From IMG/VR virus record IMGVR_UViG_3300030329_000479, positions 1-24,110 of that record: a DNA stretch of 24,110 nt; one strand, given 5' to 3'. The notes beneath the pieces are model-generated. The model ran no database searches. It was given only the letters and a program-made list of their open reading frames with translations, and was not told the DNA's origin. Each line of letters opens with the position of its first letter. Position 1 is the first letter of the stretch. Below, piece by piece: positions 15,013-22,434 of this stretch. Source of the DNA: a virus. Position numbers and translations under genes: made by a program.

Positions 15013-18000
15013 TTAAAAACCTAGGTTCGGATTAGAAGGCTCTTCGCCAGGCCCCCATGTTGTTGTAGTATTTCCTCCACCTATAGATGTTGTATTTATC
15101 CATACAGGAGTCTGTGGTAATCCCGCACCTTTTGCAGGGTTGTATTGATGAAGCTCAACTAGAGTAGTGTTACCTTCAGCTGGCATCCAATCTGAGACTT
15201 TAATTAATTTATAATATATTCCGTCAATGTAAACTAATTTAGAGAAATCTAAAGCCGCAATATCTTTAACAGTTAAATCCACATAACACCTTCTCATTTT
15301 GGGCTGTTGTATTAATCCGTCTATCATTGGCTTGTAATACCTGTGATACAGACCCTCTCCTGTTTGTTCAGTCCCATAATATTGAGATGTTTGCCATGGA
15401 GCGCCTGGGATTAATGTTCCGTCTTGATAATAATCTTGACAAACATAATTTCCATAGCTCAATCCAAATCTATTTGTGTATTCCTGCCTATTAATAAAAG
15501 TACATTGAGGAACAAAAGCATGATACCAATTAAATCCGAAAGGCTTATAAGGAGGATTGGCTCCGTACCAAGGCGCAGGAGGGAATCCTGTGGAGTAATG
15601 ACTATCTGTCCAATCAGACCAAGATATATAAGCGCTATAATTCTTCTTTACATTCATTGTTCCTTCCCACCATTGCGCTTTGAAATTTCTATATATATTT
15701 TCGTTTATATATCTATCTACTGTATTTGCAGCCTCTTGAGTTCCTAAATCAAGCTTAGTGTAATAAAGAAGTCTAGGTAAAAAGTCATAGCCTTTTTCTA
15801 TTTGACCGTCAAAATACTCCCATAAAGCAGCGGCATAAAAATTCTGAGTTCCTGTGACATTAAAAGTATCCACATAGTTTTCGTAAGTTCCAGCAAAAAA
15901 CGGATTCTCAAAAATTGTTTCTCCCGTTGGGTATCCATCACTTAAATCTTCCCAATACGGATAGAAGTCGTTGATATTTTCAAAATGATTTACCCCCATA
16001 TACTTAGACATAACATCTTTATCATCACTTTTATACTTAAATATTAATCTTCTTGTAAAGTTAGACTGTATCCATTCATCTCTAATTTCTTTTGACCTAT
16101 CTAACTTTCCTGTCCAATCAATAGCATTTTTTGGAGGTAGATAAAAATCAGTATAAGGCTCTATTGTTACTGTCCTCCTTCTAGTGTCTGTTTGAAACTG
16201 CAAATTAAAACAATGAGATATCCCTTTCAAAAAGTCTAACTGTTTGTAGTCTTGTGGTATTAAGTCTGTTAAATTGTAATTCTGTTGATATTCCAATCTT
16301 GAAGGGTTTAACATTTCTATATTTATTGTAGCATCAGCATTACCCAATGGGAAAGATAAAACATCAGGAGAAGCGCATACTAAATACATGTATACATTTG
16401 AGAGATATGTTGTGTTTCCTTGAACAGGAGAAGCGCCTTTTAATTTCATTTCAATCCTCCACAACAATCTTATTTTGTCTCCTTCGTTGAAATATCCTTC
16501 GTAAGCAAAATCTTCCATATCATCCCCTTGCGCACTATTAGCTGAGGGAAAAGGAAAGAAGGGAGCAGAATTCCCCTTAGCAATACTTACAGTATAATCT
16601 CCTACATTATAATCTAAAGTCTGCCACCCTGAATGTCCAACAGTTTGACATTGAATACCTAATCCTGCTGCAAAAAAGGCTTGACTGCTGTTTTGACCTG
16701 TTCCACCAAACGCTGTAATTCCCCCAATGTAATAACTAAAATTACTAGCTTCAAACCTGTAATACCCAGCTGTTCCAATAGTAAAGTATGTGTAGTTTGA
16801 AGCATCTGTGGTTGTAATATTACTCTCTTGAAAATTATTAAACAATACATGAGACCCTAATGGCCCTATAGCGGCTGTCTGCCTAGAAGCAAATTTTTCT
16901 GCTGGATTAGGAATGGTAGTCCAAGTAAAATTTTGAGTAAAACTCCAAGTTCGCAAAATAGGAGTTAAATAATCGGTAAGATTTATTTTAAGAAAATTAC
17001 TTTGATTGAGATTATTCTGATATCTTTCAGATGAATTTGAATACTCACAGTTTGGAAGCGCAAATAACAACCTTTTAAAATTATCACTTTCTATAAAATT
17101 TGAAGAGATACTAAACCCTATATCTTCAAACATTTGTTTAATTATTTTGTAAACCCACATCATAGGTCTCCAATCTACCACAGGCTCAGGCGTTCCATAT
17201 GTTGTTGTTCCCGCAGCGCCATAACACCCATTTTGACTTGTGCTGTAGCCCGTACCATTCGTAGCCCAATCATACTCCCAATATTGCCTTAATAATTGAA
17301 AAGTGTTAGACACTCCTGTTTCATTTGTAGGGCCATAAGTAGCTACAGGATAAATAACGGGAGATGTGTTTGTTGAGGTTGTTCCATCATATTTTGTTAT
17401 GGTTGCTGCGTTATCCGCGTTCCAAGTTTCAGTTATAGCTTTGGCGGTTAGTGGTAAATTTGTAGAGTTTGGTATAACCATTTCGTGCAAGTATTTATTT
17501 TCAAAAAGACTTGCCCATCCCACATTATCTCCGTAGAAAACACAAGAATAAGCTATTGCCGAATTATTAACTCTTATAACATCTTGAATTTGAATTAAAC
17601 CATATATTGAGTAAAGATTTCCAAAAGATATCCTGCATGGTATTTTGAATTTCAGCTCCGCTCCTAAATTAGTAGAATTAGGAATATTCATATTTTTAAG
17701 CACTTTATTGTTATGTGCTGTAGCTGGTATTTCAAATGTTTTACTATATGAACCCATTCTGCTTTCAATATCGCTTGTATCGTTTATAGCGAAAGTCATA
17801 GCGAAGGAAAAATCTTCAGGGTTTGGTGCTTCTAATCTTCCAATGACTAGGCTGTCATCCACACCTAGACGCTTAAGAGTAATTTTTGTTATCCTTAATC
17901 TTGTTCCTGAAGAAGCTCCGAACCATATTTTATCATAAACATTACCCCCCTTAATAAAATCTACATCTATCGTCCTATATCCGTTGCCTGTTGTTCCCGC

Positions 18001-18369
18001 ACTATTTGCGGTAACTATCGTATTACTCAGAATAGTAACATTTGAGCCTGTTGAACTTGCGCCAACAATAAAAAAATTACCCACTCTATTGTAGTCTGTA
18101 AACTCAACGCTTACCCTATAATTACACCCTTGACAAGTGTCTATGCTTTGAGAGAAATAACTAGCTACTGTTAAGTCATATTTACGAATAGTGTTATTCC
18201 AATAATTCCATACAGCCGTACCTCCAGCTGTTTGGGTTGTTAAATCCCAATCACTCGCACTTCCTGTAAATCCCGTATTTAAGAGTATATTTCCTCCTAT
18301 TGCAACTCCATTAGGAATGGTTCCCCCATAGTTTCTATCTTGAAGTAATTCTATTTGAATGTTTTTCAT
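15013..18369 (-). CDS. large tail/baseplate protein with inserted CBM-like module
   Basis: This 1118-residue protein resembles large tail hub or baseplate proteins of Bacteroidota phages. The core seems to resume at about 175 (LVIGRLEAPNPEDFSFAMTF...DIESRMGSYSKTFEIPATAHNNKVL), a segment that normally lies near the N-terminus of such proteins. Between MKNIQIELLQDRNYGG and this core is a module of about 140 residues (26-168) starting GNILLNTGFTGSASDWDLT, which looks like a carbohydrate-binding module of the CBM4/9 kind. The C-terminus has the strand pattern VDLTVKDIAALDFSKLVYIDGIYYKLIKVSDW, again typical of hub proteins, followed by a Gly/Thr/Asn tail. It lies in a run of tail genes with spacings of only a few bases. 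Confidence 0.75.
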   Translation of the reverse strand: MKNIQIELLQDRNYGGTIPNGVAIGGNILLNTGFTGSASDWDLTTQTAGGTAVWNYWNNTIRKYDLTVASYFSQSIDTCQGCNYRVSVEFTDYNRVGNFFIVGASSTGSNVTILSNTIVTANSAGTTGNGYRTIDVDFIKGGNVYDKIWFGASSGTRLRITKITLKRLGVDDSLVIGRLEAPNPEDFSFAMTFAINDTSDIESRMGSYSKTFEIPATAHNNKVLKNMNIPNSTNLGAELKFKIPCRISFGNLYSIYGLIQIQDVIRVNNSAIAYSCVFYGDNVGWASLFENKYLHEMVIPNSTNLPLTAKAITETWNADNAATITKYDGTTSTNTSPVIYPVATYGPTNETGVSNTFQLLRQYWEYDWATNGTGYSTSQNGCYGAAGTTTYGTPEPVVDWRPMMWVYKIIKQMFEDIGFSISSNFIESDNFKRLLFALPNCEYSNSSERYQNNLNQSNFLKINLTDYLTPILRTWSFTQNFTWTTIPNPAEKFASRQTAAIGPLGSHVLFNNFQESNITTTDASNYTYFTIGTAGYYRFEASNFSYYIGGITAFGGTGQNSSQAFFAAGLGIQCQTVGHSGWQTLDYNVGDYTVSIAKGNSAPFFPFPSANSAQGDDMEDFAYEGYFNEGDKIRLLWRIEMKLKGASPVQGNTTYLSNVYMYLVCASPDVLSFPLGNADATINIEMLNPSRLEYQQNYNLTDLIPQDYKQLDFLKGISHCFNLQFQTDTRRRTVTIEPYTDFYLPPKNAIDWTGKLDRSKEIRDEWIQSNFTRRLIFKYKSDDKDVMSKYMGVNHFENINDFYPYWEDLSDGYPTGETIFENPFFAGTYENYVDTFNVTGTQNFYAAALWEYFDGQIEKGYDFLPRLLYYTKLDLGTQEAANTVDRYINENIYRNFKAQWWEGTMNVKKNYSAYISWSDWTDSHYSTGFPPAPWYGANPPYKPFGFNWYHAFVPQCTFINRQEYTNRFGLSYGNYVCQDYYQDGTLIPGAPWQTSQYYGTEQTGEGLYHRYYKPMIDGLIQQPKMRRCYVDLTVKDIAALDFSKLVYIDGIYYKLIKVSDWMPAEGNTTLVELHQYNPAKGAGLPQTPVWINTTSIGGGNTTTTWGPGEEPSNPNLGF

Positions 18370-18372
18370 ATG

Positions 18373-20523
18373 TTAGGTAGTTTGAGTTTTAACAGGATGT
18401 GAGTGTATATAGTCAAAATTTATAGAAACCGCTCCTGTCTCATCTTCTGTTATTACATCTGAATTCGTTATCACTACAGGAACATAAACAAAATTATTAG
18501 GAGTCCTTCCATCCATATTTGCACCTTTTTCTATGTCTGATAAGCTTTTATATGCAATTTTATAAAAAGCATTTTCTCTTTGTAAAGATTTTTGTTGATT
18601 TACCTCTATCCATACATTTGGAGATGTAGCAATCTCTCTTACCCATTCAGCAACATCAGGAGCTAAAAGCTCTGTACTTGCACTACCTACTCTATCTACT
18701 GTTGACCTTAAAACCTCTCTACCTCCTCTATGGTTATCTTGACCTCTTATTGTGTCTGATTTGTATGGAGTGTTAGGAGAGGTCGTTATGGCATTTTTTT
18801 GAGGGTAAGGATTATTTCCTTGAGACATACCAATACCAAAATTAGTAGGATTTCCTTGATTTTTTAATATAACATCTTTTTCTATTGTAAATCCTTTAGT
18901 TCTTGGCCCCTTACAGGTATAGCTATCAATACCTCCAGCCGTATTTAACCAATAAAACCTTACATAAGGAGATTCGCTTGACCACCAAGAAAGAGCCTTC
19001 CCTCCTATATGCTTAGCATTAGTAGTGGCATCGGAGCGTAATTCTGTATAATACATACCTCCCCATCTTTCTGTTGATTGTTTAGCATGTGTCCTGCTCA
19101 TATCTACCCTGTACCATCTTGCTTCAGAAATATTCTTTATAGTCCCCTGAACATTCGGAGGGCCCACTTGACCATCCTCACAACTAACTATTCTAGTCCT
19201 AGTTCTATAATAAGAGACTTCGTCATTTATAAATAAAGCATCGGGCCCTCTTGTGGTTCCAACTGTGTCTATTTGATGCCTAGTGTAAAGAGTACCCCCT
19301 TTCTCCCATATAGCTTGAATCGTTGAATCTTCCCATATAGCGTTAGCGTTAATAAAAGGAATGGAAACATTTTGAACACATACTCGGTCTTGGCCTCTCT
19401 CGTAAACCTCTGTTTGTCCATTTACTTGTGTTTTTGGCTTCAGATTACTTACCCAATCAAACAATCTACAGCTTCTAAGTTCGGAGCCATCCTTATCATA
19501 TGCAGTTACCTCCATATAAGTATTAGCTGTTAAATCAGAAGTGTTTCCTGACCCATACGCAACCCCCTCAGGATTGGAAGAGGCAGTGTGCCAAATATTA
19601 TTATTATTAATACGGTTTTGTATCCATTGTAAATATTCCCCTGTCTCGCCAGGCCTTACATCTTTATAGCGTCTAGAGCCAGGCCCATACCCCCAAGAAT
19701 GGTTAAAAGCATAATTAGGCGCTCTGCTTTGCATTATTCTAGCATAGGTAGATGACGATGACCATCCACCATGAACGAAGGCAGAGTACCACCCATTTCC
19801 ATCTACTTCATTTCCATCTCTATCTAATATACTGTTAATAACCGCAATCTGACGCATTGATGTTTTTGTAGAACCTGACGCTGTAGCTTCCTGTATAAGA
19901 CCATCTCCATCTAAAATCTCTGTTCTTGCTTTTACTCTAACCCACCTGTAAGCTCCATTTTGGGATTGAATGAAATCCGCCTGCCAAACAGGTACAGCTA
20001 CATTATCTTGAGGAACAGGAGTGCCATTGAGTCCTCCCCACTTCCAATTAGTCCAAGTTCCCTTTCCTAAAGGCACTAAACTGTAGCTGATTTCATCTTT
20101 CATTATTTCACTTATATCTATAGTGAATCTATGACCTGTAGCTACCATCGTTCCACCCCCTCCATCTGCATTAGGGCCGTCAATTAAATTTCTCATATCT
20201 CTTGACTTTCGTATAGACGCTGTTAAGGCCCACTCTGTAGTGAAAGGGCTTAAATCTTTATCATTACTTGTGTATATATCAAATATAACATTTACAACAT
20301 CTCCTTTTTGTGTGGTTGAATTGTAATTGCTAGCTAAAGGCTCTGTGCCTTCATTTACCGTTGTCCCATTTGTCCATAAAACTGTGTACTCTATAGGCTC
20401 GTTAGCACTAACCCATTGTTGAAATCCATAAGACCATTGTCTTTTTTTATTTAAAGATGTGGAGCTTGTAGAACCTGCTGGCTCTATACTAAATTCCAAA
20501 CTTCCATTTATCCCGTATGCCAT
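18373..20523 (-). CDS. large minor tail protein of unknown family
   Basis: The 716-residue protein is rich in Trp, Tyr, Asn, Ser and Gly, mostly beta in appearance, with no signal peptide, membrane segment or enzyme motif I can identify. The C-terminus (about 625-700) has a helical stretch with APDVAEWVREIATSPNVWIEV and strands ending NFVYVPVVITNSDVITED, which looks like an interaction domain. It starts three bases after the LamG protein gene stop and ends three bases before the next start, in the middle of the tail block. A distal tail or baseplate component is the likeliest role. Confidence 0.75.
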   Translation of the reverse strand: MAYGINGSLEFSIEPAGSTSSTSLNKKRQWSYGFQQWVSANEPIEYTVLWTNGTTVNEGTEPLASNYNSTTQKGDVVNVIFDIYTSNDKDLSPFTTEWALTASIRKSRDMRNLIDGPNADGGGGTMVATGHRFTIDISEIMKDEISYSLVPLGKGTWTNWKWGGLNGTPVPQDNVAVPVWQADFIQSQNGAYRWVRVKARTEILDGDGLIQEATASGSTKTSMRQIAVINSILDRDGNEVDGNGWYSAFVHGGWSSSSTYARIMQSRAPNYAFNHSWGYGPGSRRYKDVRPGETGEYLQWIQNRINNNNIWHTASSNPEGVAYGSGNTSDLTANTYMEVTAYDKDGSELRSCRLFDWVSNLKPKTQVNGQTEVYERGQDRVCVQNVSIPFINANAIWEDSTIQAIWEKGGTLYTRHQIDTVGTTRGPDALFINDEVSYYRTRTRIVSCEDGQVGPPNVQGTIKNISEARWYRVDMSRTHAKQSTERWGGMYYTELRSDATTNAKHIGGKALSWWSSESPYVRFYWLNTAGGIDSYTCKGPRTKGFTIEKDVILKNQGNPTNFGIGMSQGNNPYPQKNAITTSPNTPYKSDTIRGQDNHRGGREVLRSTVDRVGSASTELLAPDVAEWVREIATSPNVWIEVNQQKSLQRENAFYKIAYKSLSDIEKGANMDGRTPNNFVYVPVVITNSDVITEDETGAVSINFDYIHSHPVKTQTT

Positions 20524-20526
20524 ATC

Positions 20527-22434
20527 TTAATATATTTTGTATTTTTTATTCAAATAATCTTTAACTGCTGATAATTCAGATGAGTTTAACGCTCTATTGT
20601 AAACTATAACTTCTTGTATATTCCCATCTAAAAATCCCAACTGAGTCCCATCTCCAATAACAAAAGAAGCATTATTATATGTTTGAGTGTTATCATAATT
20701 GCTCATTACTGCTTCCATTATAGTAGAATCATTATATTGTAACTTTAAGTTAGATGTAGAGGAGTCTAAGTGCATAGTTGCAATGTGATAATTAGAAGTA
20801 TCTCCATCCCAAACAAATCTTGCGTGCCACTCCCCTGAAGCTTGTGCAGAATCAGCAACCTTACAATACAACCTGCTTGAAGAACTTCCTAATCGTATGT
20901 GAGAATTACCTGACTCATAAGAAAAATAAGACGACTGTTCAGAAGTTGGCGCCCATGCCCTTATATCAGAAGCATCCATATTTGTCATAGTTGCGTCATT
21001 AGGACTCGTAGACGCTAAACTTAAATCAGGTATAGTTGGGAATGTTGCTCCATCTCCCATTCTCCACCAACCTATTGAATCGTTTTTCACGCTAGAAGTA
21101 TTTATATCCGCAGGATTACCACTATTATAAATTTCTGTTACCTCTGCTTGAGATAATTCTTTATTAAACATACTAACTTCATCTAACGAACCATAATATG
21201 CGTTTCCATTTCCATTTCCTAGCTCTAAATCAGCCGCTGTTTCTGCCATTCCAATATAATTGGTTGTTTGTTGGCTGTCCTGACTTTCTACTCCATCAAT
21301 ATATATCTTTAATCCTGTCGCAGAATTACTTCCGTCATAAGTGAAAACATAATTATGCCACTCGCCAGGCTCTGATACGCTAGAAACTGTTGCTCTAGTT
21401 TGAAGCTGACCTCCCACGCAGAATAACCTTACATAAACATACCCATTAGAAGATAAACTATAAAAAGAGTATTCTTTATTAGCTGCCGCATCATTTTTGT
21501 CTACCCATCCTCTAGCTGTTTGAGTAGGGTCAATATTTGACCATACAGAACAACTAAAAGCGCTATCATTACCTGCTCCATCTGTAAATGAGTATATGTT
21601 ATTTCCTCCTGCATCTTGCGGATTACCAATAGTTACAACTTCAGGAGCAGCTTGATAGTGCATGGAATAGGTATTTGTAAATGCTGGCGTTACAGGATTA
21701 GCCTGCGCTACAGTTAATATAGTAAAATCTGTAGTTATAGGGCAGTTAGAACTAGAGGTCATCTTATCTGTCGTTCCATCAAAATTTACTCTTGCCTTGT
21801 CAGAAGCTCCGTCATAAGCATATCTTAAAGGTTGGTCTGCTGAAGTGGATTGAGCGACACTATTAGAATTTCCTGATTGGTCAGCCCAAGCTGATACTTT
21901 TTTGGTAGGGGTGCTGAAAGTTAATCCACTATCTGCCCTTAACCAAACTGCTAAATTAGGTATCTGATTAGGAGAAGTAGATTGAGGTCTAAAACACTTA
22001 CTAAACACTCTCCATGTAAATGTCATTTTAAGCTGTATTAGTTGGTCATTAGCTACTTCTTTGTTTCTTTCTATAGTAACACTCTCATCTTCAAGATAAG
22101 CTGTTATAGGAGCTGTGTCTTGATAGTATTTTAAAAAATCATCTAACCATTCTGTTGCTAAATCTTGCAGGTTAGTCCATTTTTGCTGTATCGTTTCATT
22201 TGCTTGTTGCGTTCTATTGTAAAGGTCAGAAAAATACACCTCAAAAGTGTAATTCTCCCAACCATTATTCAGTCCTACTTCAGGGAAAACAGATGTAGGC
22301 GGCGTAACCAACAATGAAGGGTATTGAGTGTTGTGATTATCATTAAATTCCTCTGTATATCCAAAAAACTTATCCCCAAAAGTCCATTTGTCTTTCATTA
22401 CAGTTACTATATCATTAAGTTTTATTATCGCCAT
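20527..22434 (-). CDS. tail-completion-like domain fused to nested LamG lectin modules
   Basis: The first 150 or so of 635 residues resemble tail terminator-type proteins: YPSLLVTPPTSVFPE, WENYTFEVYFSDL and a helix WTNLQDLATEWLDDFLKYYQD. From about 157 a lectin-like fold starts with QIPNLAVWLRADSG and SAWADQSGN (181-189). Its expected last strand and helix, GNIQEVIVYNRALNSSELSAVKDYLNKKY, appear only at 604-632. In between lies another LamG-type module (about 300-490) with WHNYVFTYDGS, LKIYIDGVE, the ending SLDEVSMFNKELSQAEVTEIYNSG (416-439) and GWWRMGDG. The layout suggests one jelly-roll inserted in another. Such modules bind glycans and could give the tail extra attachment to host polysaccharides. 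Confidence 0.8.
   Translation of the reverse strand: MAIIKLNDIVTVMKDKWTFGDKFFGYTEEFNDNHNTQYPSLLVTPPTSVFPEVGLNNGWENYTFEVYFSDLYNRTQQANETIQQKWTNLQDLATEWLDDFLKYYQDTAPITAYLEDESVTIERNKEVANDQLIQLKMTFTWRVFSKCFRPQSTSPNQIPNLAVWLRADSGLTFSTPTKKVSAWADQSGNSNSVAQSTSADQPLRYAYDGASDKARVNFDGTTDKMTSSSNCPITTDFTILTVAQANPVTPAFTNTYSMHYQAAPEVVTIGNPQDAGGNNIYSFTDGAGNDSAFSCSVWSNIDPTQTARGWVDKNDAAANKEYSFYSLSSNGYVYVRLFCVGGQLQTRATVSSVSEPGEWHNYVFTYDGSNSATGLKIYIDGVESQDSQQTTNYIGMAETAADLELGNGNGNAYYGSLDEVSMFNKELSQAEVTEIYNSGNPADINTSSVKNDSIGWWRMGDGATFPTIPDLSLASTSPNDATMTNMDASDIRAWAPTSEQSSYFSYESGNSHIRLGSSSSRLYCKVADSAQASGEWHARFVWDGDTSNYHIATMHLDSSTSNLKLQYNDSTIMEAVMSNYDNTQTYNNASFVIGDGTQLGFLDGNIQEVIVYNRALNSSELSAVKDYLNKKYKIY

Follow-up and report, generated by a model that had tools for sequence, protein, structure and literature searches.

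The stretch of DNA analyzed here (the window) comprises 24,110 nucleotides of IMGVR_UViG_3300030329_000479, a 24.8-kb record of an uncultured virus. On its minus strand, within a cluster of head and tail genes, an open reading frame at 20527–22434 codes for a 635-residue protein that combines a putative N-terminal anchor domain with an outer ConA-like lectin and a LamG module nested inside it. Other products encoded in the window are a portal, a head maturation protease of the ClpP type and a tape measure protein; at the edge of the window lies an apparent end of the large terminase (assigned by eye). Read in the direction of transcription, the genes at 2902–24110 (minus strand) follow an order that is unusual for a tailed phage: the terminase end, tail genes and tape measure gene are followed by the protease, a capsid-like gene, a major-tail-like gene and the portal, with some of these assignments made by eye. 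The closest named phage by portal is Nonlabens phage P12024S, and the tape measure protein finds its best matches in Flavobacterium and Cellulophaga phages; a flavobacterial host is therefore likely.

The lectin gene is not a product of chimeric assembly. It is 100% identical in a second UViG (L002; 99.97% DNA identity, 8,581 bases), and related nested forms at about 60% identity are present in further UViGs (62% for the full-length nested orthologues L003–L005). Searches of bacterial and archaeal genomes for the N-terminal domain found none, and neither this domain nor near-identical DNA was found in named phages. The entire protein used as query gave no match in a PDB sequence search.

Within this protein, residues 1–150 (21985–22434, minus strand like all features of the gene) make up an alpha/beta domain that resembles tail terminators in the topology of its model and in its conserved gene position. 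The outer jelly roll follows in two parts. Its N-terminal half occupies residues 159–247 (21694–21960), and its C-terminal half, which closes with IQEVIVYNRAL...DYLNKKY, occupies residues 497–635 (20530–20946). Both limits come from alignment to orthologues in which the domain is uninterrupted and from the predicted strands at 161–245 and the strands and last helix at 500–632. Between the halves, residues 248–496 (20947–21693) hold a complete LamG module including the C-terminal segment WWRMGDG...ATMTNM..SDI, as delimited by a Laminin_G_3 match, by the ends of free-standing LamG modules and by the absence of this region from most orthologues. The preliminary description had proposed a lectin-like domain split by a second LamG module. 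We confirmed the reading frame, its length and the quoted motifs, with PNLAVWLRADSG at residues 159–170 and IQEVIVYNRALNSSELSAVKDYLNKKY at residues 606–632. The split and the LamG module between the outer pieces are as proposed; the boundaries had to be moved, from 157–270 to about 159–247 for the first outer piece and from 490–635 to 497–635 for the second. Pfam recognizes a single Laminin_G_3 domain (PF13385) at residues 277–432 (E 1.4e-21; 77.7 bits, above the cut-off of 27.6), which falls within the insert. Since the outer domain of uninterrupted orthologues scores 17.9–23.8 bits with the same family, under the curated cut-off of 27.6, it is best described from sequence as a divergent relative of Laminin_G_3 rather than a scored member.

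The strongest evidence for nesting comes from relatives that lack the inner module. Orthologues collected from IMG/VR, with duplicates removed, amount to 93 distinct proteins. No insert is present in 81 of them (the empty forms, about 375–419 residues), which consist of the N-terminal domain and one uninterrupted outer domain. LamG is carried by 9 (630–642 residues), and an unrelated module of CBM4/9 type by the remaining 3 (525–531 residues). A query made by joining the two outer halves, with the insert taken out, gave contiguous matches at 45–50% identity in L058, L060, L061 and L070, with the N-terminal domain encoded on the same contigs. The two kinds of insert enter the jelly roll one strand apart: LamG between DFTILTVAQANP and TSEQSSYFSYESG, which corresponds to loop 244–250 of the empty form L020, and the CBM4/9-type module in the turn that joins the next two strands, between VFGYFN and SIEMG (L043, L047 and L052). 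When these three inserts were compared with Pfam singly, that of L047 matched PF02018 (CBM_4_9; E 1.6e-6, 29.0 bits against a cut-off of 25.9), and those of L043 and L052 gave no match; a profile of all three matched the laminarinase CBM 1gui (E 6.6e-5). One orthologue (L098:1657–2274, on the same contig as L164; UViG 3300010883_001326) ends after 205 residues, and tblastn still aligns the remaining outer domain downstream of the stop, which probably reflects a frameshift or an assembly error.

Structure predictions agree with this comparison. AlphaFold2 models the empty orthologue L020 as one confident jelly roll, with most of residues 155–383 above pLDDT 90; the PDB matches of this model are jelly rolls of the ConA-like type, with E values of about 1e-9. 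Clostridial neurotoxin receptor-binding domains are among the best matches to the outer fold; at 12–17% identity, they share the ConA-like fold, and no toxin function is implied. The model of the 635-residue protein places outer strands before (161–245) and after (500–632) the insert in the same order as in L020 and puts a second set of strands within the insert (256–493); confidence is low at both joints (249–252 and 496–499). In a search of viral structures, the best match to the protein was one of 398 residues, aligned over 654 columns (E 6e-36), as a homologue without the insert would be expected to align. Because empty-site orthologues exist, the models match strand for strand and the ends of the insert are module-precise, we conclude that a single outer jelly roll (159–247 plus 497–635) is interrupted by a complete LamG module. 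The contrary result named in the preliminary description, sequential independent jelly rolls, is not what the data show. The view that three such jelly rolls follow one another (about 157–270, 277–490 and 490–635), with the outer pieces as separate small domains, could draw on the completeness of the inner LamG and on the modest overall pTM of the full-length model (0.52), but it is contradicted by the uninterrupted domain of the empty orthologues, by the single confident jelly roll of their model and by strands that correspond in order before and after the insert. We consider it almost certainly wrong.

The insert itself appears to be a complete mobile module. It aligns with the C-terminal LamG modules of otherwise unrelated phage proteins (L006–L009), starts with the same NxYSxxF motif as these modules and, like the proteins that carry them, stops after ..GDG..ATMTNM..SDI. 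Since the ends are module-precise and nested forms are rare, we infer that LamG was gained rather than lost. The reverse scenario, in which nesting is ancestral, LamG has belonged to the fold from early on and the empty forms arose by deletion, is formally compatible with the outer-domain tree, which is unrooted and unites the LamG forms in a single branch, so that a single loss would suffice. We nevertheless judge it highly improbable, given that the insert ends coincide with those of free-standing modules, that nested forms account for 9 of 93 proteins, that other members have a different type of module in the adjacent loop, and that an uninterrupted outer domain with 23–29% identity occurs in named phage records (cyanophage and Erythrobacter phage).

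We then compared the histories of the parts of the protein by means of quick trees, from which event counts can only be read roughly. The LamG forms lie dispersed over the N-terminal-domain tree, where their distribution takes 6 changes, at least 3 of which are forced by supported branches. In the tree built from the outer domain without the insert, they make up one branch (SH-aLRT 96). This discrepancy indicates that lineages have exchanged the nested lectin. Pairwise comparisons give the same picture at closer range: L095 and L139 share only 48% identity in the N-terminus and 90% in the insert, and L120 (with LamG) and L121 (empty) share 93% in the N-terminus and 43% in the outer domain. In another pair, L112 and L117, the N-terminus (93%) and the outer domain (87%) are similar, but the inserts are only 35% identical. 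Recombination confined to the insert is unsupported, because the tract of 83–100% identity between L095 and L139 extends past the insert on both sides.

At the DNA level, L120 and L122 are 86–90% identical to L121 up to about residue 200 of the lectin gene; beyond that point, identity declines over the next genes before it recovers to 86% at the Neck1-like gene that precedes the tape measure gene. This profile assigns the lectin to a variable block between conserved flanks, and the gene order follows a single arrangement across all 73 loci compared. The hypervariable block spans 15013–21800 of the window and includes the lectin C-terminus and the genes g716 and g1118, which are about 25–47% identical between relatives. 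It is flanked by the conserved g231, g79 and N-terminal domain on one side and by g174 and the tape measure gene on the other, with sharp drops in DNA identity that mark mosaic joints. The large, tail-tip-like g1118 (15013–18369, minus strand) has a variable segment of its own: about 140 additional residues (about 25–170) lie between the first strand (MKNIQIELLQD) and the core (SLVIGRLEAP). Its relatives in L088 and L130 lack this segment and have about 26 residues there, and those in L137, L139 and L142 have about 500, a presence/absence pattern near the N-terminus similar to that of the lectin gene. By eye the segment is CBM-like; it has no Pfam match and no convincing PDB match.

These observations bear on the question as to what the inserted module may do. 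Many LamG domains bind proteins, and the module could accordingly be a spacer, a stabilizing element or a protein binder that makes no contact with glycans. We regard this as unlikely, though by no means negligible, because it sits poorly with the CBM4/9-type insert in the adjacent loop, whose profile matches a laminarinase CBM, and with the location of the gene in a hypervariable, recombining block, as expected of regions that contact receptors. Glycan binding by both lectin domains is suggested by their fold.

The N-terminal domain would determine where on the particle these lectins sit. Residues 1–150 are predicted, with moderate model confidence, to run in the order helix, two strands, helix, three strands, which fits tail terminators. 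The neighbors of the lectin gene include Neck1-like and chaperone-like genes, and this order is also consistent with a terminator. In P12024S the terminase is followed by gp38, gp39, gp41 and gp42 in corresponding order; gp41 takes the place of the lectin gene, and gp42 matches the Neck1 family phrog_5 (E 4e-4). Searches with residues 1–150 against PHROGs and the PDB and an hhalign comparison with lambda gpU gave no match, and known terminators have often diverged too far for sequence tests; comparison with the neighboring neck genes revealed no homology. The tail-terminator-like N-terminus of the preliminary description thus agrees with predicted topology and gene order and finds no match in sequence, profile or PDB searches. 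We consider it a plausible assignment and a reasonable guess from these two lines of evidence. Among the papers searched, none links LamG to a tail terminator.

Automatic annotation does not settle the matter. The protein does match phrog_347, a family labeled "tail terminator", but this match covers LamG residues 410–491 only (20962–21207, minus strand), and L006 and L008 likewise receive a "tail terminator" label from LamG alone. The label can therefore not serve as proof of a terminator N-terminus. PHROG connector labels carry over to unrelated proteins by way of shared C-terminal LamG segments.

A more serious alternative accepts the insert as real and holds that the N-terminus is not a terminator but another tail, neck or baseplate component, with the lectins at the tail tip. 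It is in keeping with the lack of any sequence match between residues 1–150 and a terminator family or structure, with the tail-tip-like g1118 among the genes between the lectin gene and the tape measure gene, and with a major-tail-like gene located elsewhere. The predicted topology and the P12024S-like order after the terminase, with gp41 preceding the Neck1-like gene, speak against it, and we rate it as possible but somewhat doubtful. As to the second part of the earlier claim, that a terminator would be an unusual site for glycan-binding domains, comparable cases make the placement less unusual than thought. The protein L007:2041–3039 combines a head-closure-type N-terminus (phrog_25, E 2.9e-7) with a C-terminal LamG, and phrog_10356 pairs a similar connector start with a lectin of the outer type. 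A connector protein bearing LamG is therefore no peculiarity of the lectin gene.

Taken together, we propose that the 635-residue product belongs to the tail or neck of the virion of a marine tailed phage that probably infects flavobacteria. The N-terminal domain would serve as the anchor in the particle, most likely in the form of a ring subunit of the tail-terminator type, and the C-terminal ConA-like jelly roll would project outward. A complete mobile LamG would have been inserted into one jelly-roll loop, between strands 237–245 and 500–508. Because a ConA-type fold has its two termini near each other, the outer domain can accommodate LamG and stay intact, and the lectin scaffold appears to tolerate insertion of whole domains in two adjacent loops. 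The nested pair may be an adhesin that can be exchanged and that contributes weak contacts with glycans of the host or of particles, and may pass between lineages by recombination near the junction of anchor and lectin, together with the neighboring variable tail genes. From the features described above we presume where the protein sits in the virion, that it is exposed on the surface and that it takes part in adsorption. We consider this overall explanation, an anchored, outward-facing lectin with an inserted mobile LamG that serves as an exchangeable adhesin, to be probable. More tentatively, a terminator-type protein of widespread uncultured marine phages may provide a docking hotspot of two adjacent loops that hold LamG, CBM4/9 or nothing; the head–tail junction might then be an evolving site of adhesion besides the tail tip, with the neighboring tail-tip-like gene gaining and losing modules likewise.

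At one fixed gene position, nature thus offers a series in which the same scaffold is empty, carries LamG or carries a CBM in the next loop. This series makes the gain of an adhesin module without breakage of a virion protein directly testable, and it illustrates how insertion of whole domains can diversify a lectin that is presumably exposed on the surface. The phages of this group seem to vary a surface protein by taking up lectin modules that are already complete. The series also calls for caution with automatic annotation, since a "tail terminator" label may stem from the passenger lectin and not from the anchor domain.

The closest known parallel is the evolved Dit of siphophages, in which CBMs are inserted into loops of the Dit galectin domain and some have been shown to bind host cells (PMC7291167, PMC6669499). 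In both systems a whole module of carbohydrate-binding type occupies a loop of a virion beta-sandwich in some relatives only, and some evolved Dit proteins likewise contain a CBM4-like module. By gene position and match results, however, the protein described here is not a Dit: its gene lies upstream of the tape measure gene with four genes in between, whereas Dit is encoded just after it, and neither Pfam nor PHROGs yields a Dit match. Unlike in evolved Dit, the scaffold is a ConA-like lectin on a different N-terminal domain, encoded soon after the terminase; as the insert, 9 members have LamG and 3 have a CBM. Evolved Dit belongs to phages of Gram-positive bacteria, whereas the phages studied here are uncultured, marine and probably infect Bacteroidota. 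Lactococcal phages of the 936 group bear CBMs on the neck passage structure and carry TpeX extensions of the major tail protein (PMC6669499), which puts modules of this type on neck and tube proteins, at a distance from the tail tip, as we infer for the protein described here. The modules of 936 phages are terminal extensions, whereas the additional module here is nested inside another lectin. Finally, Laminin_G_3 (PF13385) is found at the C-termini of marine phage proteins, some of them of connector type (L007, phrog_347 and phrog_10356), and the inner module is of the same type with the same ends; in those proteins it is terminal, whereas here it interrupts another ConA-like domain. The principle known from evolved Dit would thereby extend to a different protein and to phages whose hosts are other bacteria.
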